Positions 15,817-17,017 of a stretch of DNA of 64,000 bases are shown one piece after another (the stretch's first letter is position 1; each line of letters starts with the position of its first letter). Source of the DNA: Bacillota bacterium (lineage in GTDB: Bacteria > Bacteroidota > Bacteroidia > Bacteroidales > Bacteroidaceae); NCBI GenBank assembly GCA_023664625.1, contig JAMPFD010000008.1, positions 80,914-144,913 on the forward strand, given 5' to 3'. The notes under the pieces are model-generated. The model was not told where the DNA came from. It did not search any database and saw nothing but the letters and a program-made list of their open reading frames with translations. The position numbers and the translations under genes are program-made.

Positions 15817-15916
15817 AATTATCAGGATATCTGTTTTCTAAAAAAATGAAAGCCGAAAGTTATTAAAAAAAGTATAAAACAGCGGCTTATTCCATTGAGT
15901 TTAGGAATATATTTAC

Positions 15917-15924
15917 TACCTTTG
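15917..15924 (+). promoter_or_regulatory. -7 element for the corA transcript
   Basis: TACCTTTG, with TTG at 15895-15897 spaced by exactly 19 bases. The predicted transcript begins near 15931 and carries a leader of about 165 bases before corA. Confidence 0.7.
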
Positions 15925-15936
15925 CACTGAATTAAC

Positions 15937-16093
15937 GGCGTAAAGGTAGTTTTCTTTATGCCTATGTTTAACCAATAATAAGAAGAAATGGACGATTATC
16001 ATCCGGAAAACGACATTATGTAGTTCTGGGGATACGACCTTTAGGATTGTAGGCCTCAGATAAATATTCTTGTGTAAAAAAGGCTTACAAGTT
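15937..16093 (+). promoter_or_regulatory. Structured corA leader with competing pairings
   Basis: Hairpin 1 pairs GGCGTAAAG (15937-15945) with CTTTATGCC (15954-15962). Hairpin 2 pairs TCTGGGG (16025-16031) with CCTCAGA (16054-16060), directly after the short ORF at 15988-16023. TAAAGGT (15941-15947), in the 5' arm of hairpin 1, is also perfectly complementary to ACCTTTA (16037-16043) in the loop of hairpin 2, so a mutually exclusive long-range pairing is possible. A further small stem (CTTG..TAA / TTACAAG) lies just before the corA ATG. It does not match the M-box magnesium riboswitch as far as can be seen by eye. Confidence 0.45.
15988..16023 (+). CDS. Putative leader peptide of corA (11 residues)
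   Basis: ATG to TAG encodes MDDYHPENDIM, preceded by an A/G-rich stretch. It lies between the two leader hairpins and ends one base before hairpin 2. The peptide is rich in acidic residues and contains a proline, reminiscent of the acidic/proline leader peptides known from enterobacterial magnesium-transporter genes (mgtL). Translation is unproven. Confidence 0.35.
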   Translation: MDDYHPENDIM

Positions 16094-17017
16094 ATGAAGA
16101 ATTATTGGAACACCGAACATCAGTTGAAACAGATTGATGAGTGGCAGCCAAACTGCTGGATACAGGTGACATGCCCTACAGACGAGGACCGGCGTCACTT
16201 GGAAGAGACATATAATATTCCTGATTATTTTCTTTCAGACATCTCTGATAATGACGAGAGGGCACGCTATGAATATGATGACGGATGGATGCTTATCATT
16301 CTACGTATACCTTATGTAAAAGAGATAAGGTCGCGCACACCGTACACCACAGTGCCGCTGGGTATAATACATAAGCGTGACGTGACTATTACGGTATGTA
16401 ATTTTGAGACAAACATGATGATTGATTTCATCAGTTTTCACAAACGCAGAGGTGAAGGATTTACAGATTACGTGGATATGATTTTCAGGCTTTTCCTAAG
16501 TAGTGCCGTCTGGTATCTGAAGCGTCTGAAACAGATCTCACAACGCATAGACCAAGCGAAGAAAGACATGTCGAAAGTGGACAATGAGGCTCTCATCGGT
16601 CTTTCCCGCCTGCAAGACTCACTGACATATTTCCAGACTTCCATCCGTGGCAATGAGAATCTCCTTGCCAAGTTGAAGTTCAAGTTGCAGGTGGACGAAC
16701 TGGATGCCGACCTTATAGAAGATGTAAGCATTGAGATGTCACAGGCGCGGGAGACAACAAATATATACTCGAACATTCTTGAGTCGACAATGGAGACTTA
16801 CCGTGGCATCATCAACAACAATATGAACACCACGATGCGTACACTCACTTCTGTAACAATCATAATGATGTTCCCTACTCTCATAGCGTCACTCTTCGGA
16901 ATGAACCTTATCAATGGCATGGAGAACAATCCGCTTGGCTTTGCCATCGCCCTGTTTATCTCCATCTTCGTCAGCATTGCCAGCTGGGCGGCGCTGAGAT
17001 GGAAGCAGCTGATATAA
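16094..17017 (+). CDS. corA: CorA family magnesium/divalent-cation channel
   Basis: 307 residues from the ATG at 16094; an in-frame start at 16070 lies inside the leader structure and is less likely. A soluble N-terminal domain is followed by a long helix (about residues 150-240) and two C-terminal membrane helices. The signature GMN motif appears in SLFGMNLINGMENN, near residue 272. CorA pentamers admit Mg2+ (sometimes Co2+ or Ni2+) across the inner membrane. The long structured leader suggests control after transcription starts. Confidence 0.93.
   Translation: MKNYWNTEHQLKQIDEWQPNCWIQVTCPTDEDRRHLEETYNIPDYFLSDISDNDERARYEYDDGWMLIILRIPYVKEIRSRTPYTTVPLGIIHKRDVTITVCNFETNMMIDFISFHKRRGEGFTDYVDMIFRLFLSSAVWYLKRLKQISQRIDQAKKDMSKVDNEALIGLSRLQDSLTYFQTSIRGNENLLAKLKFKLQVDELDADLIEDVSIEMSQARETTNIYSNILESTMETYRGIINNNMNTTMRTLTSVTIIMMFPTLIASLFGMNLINGMENNPLGFAIALFISIFVSIASWAALRWKQLI

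Follow-up and report, generated by a model that had tools for sequence, protein, structure and literature searches.

Organization of the corA locus

The window, by which we mean the whole stretch of 64,000 nucleotides that was analysed, encodes a CorA-family Mg2+ transporter preceded by a leader with a short upstream open reading frame (uORF) and several predicted RNA stems.

15894..15924, +, putative promoter: ATTG at 15894-15897, a 19-base spacer and TACCTTTG at 15917-15924 (sequence compared with consensus)
15937..15962, +, hairpin 1 (fold -13.2 kcal/mol), seen only in the Palleniella-like clade
15988..16023, +, uORF of 11 codons, MDDYHPENDIM followed by TAG (ATG at 15988, stop at 16021-16023), conserved in genus leaders
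15997..16034, +, P:A hairpin, uORF codons 4-7 with 16024-16034 (-10.1 kcal/mol), a fold that may form while the uORF is free of ribosomes
16025..16060, +, hairpin 2, A:B (fold -15.2 kcal/mol)
16025..16039, +, arm A, the 5' arm of hairpin 2, starting directly after the uORF stop (from the fold)
16044..16060, +, arm B, the 3' arm of hairpin 2, partner of A or C (A:B -15.2 kcal/mol)
16081..16090, +, arm C, in the corA start region, pairing with B at 16047-16056 over 10 bp (B:C -13.0 kcal/mol; covariation)
16094..17017, +, corA, CorA-family Mg2+ transporter of 307 aa (PF01544, E 1.7e-43)

The corA translation contains LFGMNLINGMEN; we take GMN to be the CorA family signature. The element at 15894-15924 is a good match to the Bacteroidota promoter consensus TTTG / TAnnTTTG (excerpt of PMC7366714) and is a putative promoter, from which a transcript start would be expected near 15930. 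The motif argues against a transcript start downstream of 16023, an eventuality that the initial annotation had kept in view. Of 107 genus leaders, 105 have a TAnnTTTG box in the 130 nt that precede the uORF, as against 6 of 107 reversed control sequences; in 73 of the 107 leaders the box lies 27-31 nt before the uORF ATG. In the window this distance is 63 nt, the surplus length being hairpin 1.

A short acidic reading frame precedes corA

Comparison of leaders establishes a conserved uORF. CorA was found in 130 of 150 genomes of the same genus and 110 leaders were read, the other 20 CorA-bearing genomes falling outside the count (contig ends, fragments or unpicked). The regular expression ATG-GAY-GAY-(GAY)-TAY was matched by 107 of the 110 leaders. 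One further leader carries a MIDDY variant, reading MIDDYPADSNKC, which brings the MDDY, MDDDY and MIDDY types together to 108 of 110; leaders L109 and L110 have no uORF of these types. The acidic 11-codon frame reported in the initial annotation is thus present and occurs far above chance. Since the expression itself demands Asp-Asp-Tyr, conservation is gauged by the 107 matches among 110 leaders and not by the composition of the matches. Within the 107, codon 3 is GAT in 80 and GAC in 27, and codon 4 is TAT in 61 and TAC in 44. Codon 5, which the expression leaves free, encodes Pro (52), His (49), Leu (3) or Tyr (3), codon 7 encodes Glu (66), Asp (23), Asn (13), Lys (3) or Ala (2), and the stop is codon 12 in 82. 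To judge from these codons, the pattern looks like selection on a short peptide. A pattern search of the window's own genome for further genes under such a uORF gave a single match.

Codon 6 (16003-16005 in the window) shows a regularity of its own. It is NCG in 105 of the 107 genus leaders (GCG 94, TCG 6, CCG 5), that is, it ends in CG regardless of the amino acid; the remaining two leaders have the pattern displaced by one codon.

For the order, 393 genomes were sampled and leaders were chosen regardless of motif by a CorA match with E below 1e-45. This gave 83 leaders, of which 81 were used (G500 and G539 lie near contig starts); the window's own leader is not among them. A uORF was accepted if it had 7-30 codons, started M[DE][DEG] and stopped 30-115 nt before corA. 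Such a frame is present in 60 of the 81 leaders, compared with a mean of 0.6 after shuffling (maximum 3, 20 rounds) and none in the reversed or reverse-complemented sequences. The peptides include MDDYHSEY, MDDYHPER, MDEGPYHSKNKY, MDDSNPRPYSKSIN, MDEDPYNLENYKFFS and MDDPNSRTYLKV, as well as the divergent forms MDEGPYHS, MDDSNPR, MDEDPYN and MDDPNSR, which keep acid at residues 2-3. Proline follows the acid within the next few residues in 39 of the 81 leaders. Related versions of the leader, as recognized by sequence, recur across many families of the order. Outside the order, an M[DE][DEG]-type uORF (e.g. MDDYYSEMLN) was found in 12 of 28 leaders taken from the best 30 CorA matches, all 12 from one genus in another family of the same class; the corA start codons used here and in the Shine-Dalgarno counts below were placed by rule and are uncurated. 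The rules used found no uORF in 21 of the 81 leaders of the order and in 16 of the 28 from outside it, so the proposed control appears to be dispensable.

The link of the uORF to corA is established by the converse comparison. GTDB species genomes scanned by the DNA pattern of the peptide alone yielded at least 119 places. Among the places listed, 97 have a tblastn match to the window's CorA no more than 400 nt downstream and four are similar uORFs cut by a locus edge. In another 15 the uORF and the start of an rsmA-like ORF overlap, and 13 of these have a CorA-like ORF behind the rsmA-like one; three places have no CorA link. A phylum-wide pattern search matched 7 of 296 genomes and, judged by the ORFs listed there, none of these matches besides the window is a corA leader. 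The phylum pattern demands a fifth codon starting with C, so MDDYYS forms were missed; the protein-led sampling recovered them. As the DNA-pattern scans select for Tyr and NCG (the GTDB scan also for His), codon frequencies are given from the genus set only.

Hairpin 2 and the covarying alternative B:C

The window leader folds more stably than its dinucleotide shuffles (z -3.73 for 15850-16140, z -2.91 for 15930-16130). Hairpin 2 was described in the initial annotation as following the uORF stop; it is present there, and over 47 divergent leaders the hairpin 2 region folds beyond chance with a mean z of -2.7. The conserved alternative to this A:B hairpin had been missed. It is the pairing of B (16047-16056) with C (16081-16090) just before the corA ATG.

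An earlier search for B:C duplexes covered the whole stretch from the uORF to C in 196 leaders (218 minus 22 duplicates) but z averaged only -2.4, and in 129 of the 196 leaders no more than 2 of 50 shuffles did as well. Long targets permit spurious bulged duplexes and B was therefore redefined from the A:B fold alone. With B so defined, the duplex of each leader with its own C was compared with duplexes with the C of other leaders, using 47 leaders less than 75% identical; such permutation removes the shared ancestry of leaders only in part. The own pairing averages -14.93 kcal/mol, versus -9.30 kcal/mol for permuted pairs (sd 0.41; the lowest of 5000 permutations was -10.89). In the control, in which the 5' arm was paired with C, own pairs (-4.47) are no better than swapped ones (-5.43) in the same 47 leaders. 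The order-wide leaders, which were not chosen by motif, gave -13.29 versus -8.37 kcal/mol (sd 0.32; lowest of 5000, -9.63); 55 of 58 leaders entered this test, three being left out because the hairpin was too short or C was a duplicate. For the 12 leaders from outside the order the values are -10.81 and -8.25, with one of 5000 permutations as low. In these 12 leaders B pairs with a start region that has no GGAG, e.g. TTTCAAAAT with ATTTTGAAATG. Comparison thus establishes the A:B hairpin and a covarying B:C pairing at the level of sequence and computed energies.

At least 5 nt of B are common to both pairings in 45 of the 47 and 54 of the 58 leaders, and because these nucleotides are shared the two pairings are mutually exclusive. 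Arm A begins at the uORF stop: searched from -9, its start lies at a median of -2 nt (47 leaders) or +3 nt (58 leaders) counted from the stop codon's first base. Arm A would therefore be covered by a ribosome that has reached the stop.

The P:A stem is part of the minimum-energy fold of the window leader. It would complete the logic of an attenuator. As a conserved third pairing it is not supported, covariation being absent over the 47 leaders (own -7.13, permuted -6.97, sd 0.25), and we retain it only for the window and some of its relatives.

The initial annotation had placed the switch elsewhere, in a mutually exclusive pairing of hairpin 1 with the loop of hairpin 2. TAAAGGT at 15941-15947 can indeed pair with ACCTTTA at 16037-16043 (duplex -10.0 kcal/mol). 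A hairpin 1 of the TAAAGGT type together with ACCTTT in loop 2 was found in the window (L001) and in its close relatives L002 and L144 (Palleniella muris), L003, and L244 (P. intestinalis). Both motifs are missing from the leaders that come next in similarity (L158, L179, L186 and L228), among which the upstream part was folded for L158. We therefore ruled out this pairing as the switch: it exists in the window, but is confined to the Palleniella clade and is not part of the core. The conservation expected for the leader holds for the uORF and hairpin 2, and largely fails for the hairpin 1 pairing.

That hairpin 1 and its loop 2 pairing are unconserved beyond the close clade is what one would expect of a chance short ORF amid ordinary intergenic structure. 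For the leader as a whole this explanation is barely credible. The 60 uORFs in 81 order leaders against 0.6 expected, together with the B:C permutation tests, refute chance for the uORF and for B:C, and it could stand only for hairpin 1.

The start region of corA

Arm C often contains a G-rich block. Among the order leaders (L263-L343), the 20 nt directly preceding corA contain an SD-like (Shine-Dalgarno-like) 4-mer in 53 of the 60 that have a uORF but in 1 of the 21 that lack one; in the window, such a 4-mer precedes 6 of 59 uncurated ORFs of at least 150 aa. The window's own corA is preceded by AAGG only; a GGAG-type block is absent. Ribosomes of Bacteroidia largely ignore Shine-Dalgarno sequences (accessible text of PMC9976891), so concealing the G-rich block could on its own be without effect. 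In arm C the GGAG-like sequence may either be a simple partner of B or, in those species, be read by SD-competent ribosomes. In a bolder version of the latter, the leader would be a long-established Mg2+ sensor of Bacteroidia, and the GGAG-like block, besides pairing with B, would serve an SD-competent (e.g. bS21-lacking) ribosome subpopulation as a real Shine-Dalgarno sequence. We hold this to be doubtful: the window leader has AAGG only and the 12 outside-order leaders bury the start region without GGAG. If true, SD-blind bacteria would have in corA a second case of translation by specialized ribosomes, here tied to abortion on the uORF when Mg2+ is low.

A ribosome-controlled switch is proposed for corA

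We consider it fairly probable that the leader is a ribosome-controlled translational switch for corA, likely triggered by low Mg2+. The anatomy of the leader matches the mgtQ switch of Salmonella (see below), and we propose on this ground that an aborted or paused uORF ribosome turns corA on. A ribosome that completes the uORF to its stop would cover A, leaving B to pair with C and block corA initiation (OFF). A ribosome that pauses or drops off in the first codons (Asp-Asp-Tyr-His/Pro...) would allow A to pair with B, so that C stays open and corA is translated (ON). The trigger would most likely be low Mg2+, acting through destabilized ribosomes that bear an acidic N-terminal nascent chain. 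We infer translation of the uORF, the direction of the switch and Mg2+ as the signal; the last is plausible by analogy, given the acidic residues, the CorA target and the mgtQ parallel.

The direction was addressed by masking a ribosome footprint in the partition function and reading out the openness of C. For the window, predicted openness is 0.32 without a ribosome, 0.45-0.60 with a ribosome on codons 2-8 and 0.32 with a ribosome at the stop. The corresponding means for no ribosome, early positions and the stop are 0.36, 0.43 and 0.32 over the 47 leaders and 0.34, 0.37 and 0.31 over the 58 order leaders. The difference between early positions (codons 3 and 5) and the stop is +0.10 (n = 47), compared with -0.03 after shuffling of the sequence downstream (n = 94; Mann-Whitney p 1e-7). 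In 29 of 47 and 30 of 58 leaders C is more open at early positions than at the stop by a margin above 0.02; an early gain of more than 0.2 over the ribosome-free value is reached in only 6 of the 47 and 5 of the 58. The simulated effect is modest and supports, without proving, the proposed direction.

The same switch could operate by something other than Mg2+-dependent destabilization: its nascent peptide could be a specific arrest peptide, or could sense a different stress such as an antibiotic, amino acid limitation or a lack of EF-P or of an ABC-F factor. The M-D-D-(D)-Y start in 107 of 110 genus leaders is more specific than charge alone requires and the NCG at codon 6 points the same way. 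Across the order, however, the peptides diverge and retain acid and often proline instead of one sequence, and the peptides listed show no single starvation codon run. We regard an alternative of this kind as unlikely, if by no means negligible, and continue to favour low Mg2+ sensed through the acidic nascent chain.

The initial annotation spoke of translation-coupled attenuation. A translation-coupled acidic-peptide leader is strongly supported by its conservation in the genus, the order and one outside genus; the output, on the other hand, points to control of translation initiation, because the conserved exclusive pair A:B versus B:C buries the corA start region. A precedent for output through transcription attenuation or Rho-dependent termination is the enterobacterial corL-corA leader, by which corA of Salmonella and E. 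coli is known to be controlled (partial text of PMC11552253). Such an output appears improbable here, as the window sequence has no U-run after hairpin 2 and the covarying partner of B lies within the last 17 nt before corA, the stretch that was tested.

The RNA itself might instead bind Mg2+ or another ligand, with the uORF secondary. Such a riboswitch would suit a metal transporter gene whose start is involved in two mutually exclusive folds. Searches of Rfam with the window leader gave nothing at the gathering threshold, though, and up to E 10 only chance-level matches far below gathering scores. Stem sequences vary widely, no conserved unpaired core is seen in the leaders listed, and the recurring element is a reading frame. 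The M-box, the Mg2+ riboswitch in Rfam, exerts leader control of Mg2+ transport genes; the corA leader differs from it in giving no Rfam covariance match and in conserving a reading frame and not an aptamer. A riboswitch is in our view quite improbable.

Comparison with known Mg2+-responsive leaders

The closest parallel is mgtQ of Salmonella, an 8-codon ORF between mgtC and mgtB, whose Asp2 and Glu5 destabilize ribosomes; stem 2:3 is then favoured over 3:4 and the ribosome-binding site of the Mg2+ transporter gene is released (Choi et al., 2021; excerpted text of PMC8092293). The same source describes assays of Ala substitutions of Asp2 and Glu5 and gives the host operon as mgtCBRU. In both leaders the gene for a Mg2+ transporter is preceded by a short uORF whose first codons include acidic residues. 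Both have alternative stems: 1:2 plus 3:4 versus 2:3 in mgtQ, where 3:4 buries the ribosome-binding site, and here B:C, predicted to bury the start region, exclusive with A:B. In mgtQ 2:3 (-16.4) is more stable than 3:4 (-12.26; same excerpt), as A:B (-15.2) is more stable than B:C (-13.0) in the window. Control is at translation in mgtQ (PMC8092293, in the portion available) and, from sequence, is proposed to be so for the corA leader. The mgtQ switch was tested at the bench (same portion), whereas the corA leader is described here from sequence and computed folds. A counterpart of stem 1:2 (P:A) is predicted in the window; over the 47 leaders it shows no covariation.

The two also differ in phylum, in peptide, in transporter (MgtB, a P-type ATPase, versus CorA) and in position, mgtQ being intergenic and the present uORF lying in a 5' leader. 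The corA leader may thus work like mgtQ, and kinship with it is unsupported because phylum, peptide and transporter differ. Homology by descent would lead one to expect an mgtCBRU operon, and the target here is CorA.

The corL-corA leader of Salmonella and E. coli shares with the present one a uORF before corA and two exclusive RNA folds. In the available part of PMC11552253, translation of corL is inversely related to corA expression, the leader responds to intracellular Mg2+, and the output is Rho-dependent termination. As far as that text goes, corL has fewer acidic and proline residues, whereas the peptide here starts MDD and the alternative fold would cover the corA start. The mgtL-mgtA leader likewise encodes, ahead of a Mg2+ transporter gene, a peptide with acidic residues and proline; incomplete translation of this peptide at low Mg2+ turns the transporter on (excerpts of PMC11282234 and PMC11552253). 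The same excerpts give Rho-dependent termination and an EPDP motif for mgtL-mgtA, whereas here the start region would be buried.

If the proposed switch is correct, control of Mg2+ uptake by an acidic, ribosome-destabilizing leader peptide is not an enterobacterial speciality. The same control in an unrelated phylum and with a different transporter would suggest the weakened ribosome as a general readout of Mg2+, and Bacteroidia, in which ribosomes start translation without Shine-Dalgarno pairing, would possess a conserved switch operated through a uORF. The literature searched contained no description of such a leader; most subscription journals were beyond reach, so its absence from print is not established. 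The leader offers compact constructs for tractable hosts.

Other arrangements of the peptide

The rsmA-type layout (e.g. L160, L175 and L189) has the same peptide in a different arrangement, in which a MDDYHAEN-type uORF shares sequence with an rsmA-like gene at the start codon of the latter. L346 (9-1802, genome G394) shows this overlap with an rsmA-like gene (+22), and a CorA of another subfamily lies downstream. The genes were identified as RrnaAD (PF00398) and CorA (PF01544), the latter only distantly similar to the CorA of the window (E 5.5e-8). The CNNM/CorC family is linked to Mg2+, and in a single case, L347 (585-1992, genome G223), a 41-codon ORF starting MDDYHAER abuts a gene of this family (PF01595, PF03471).
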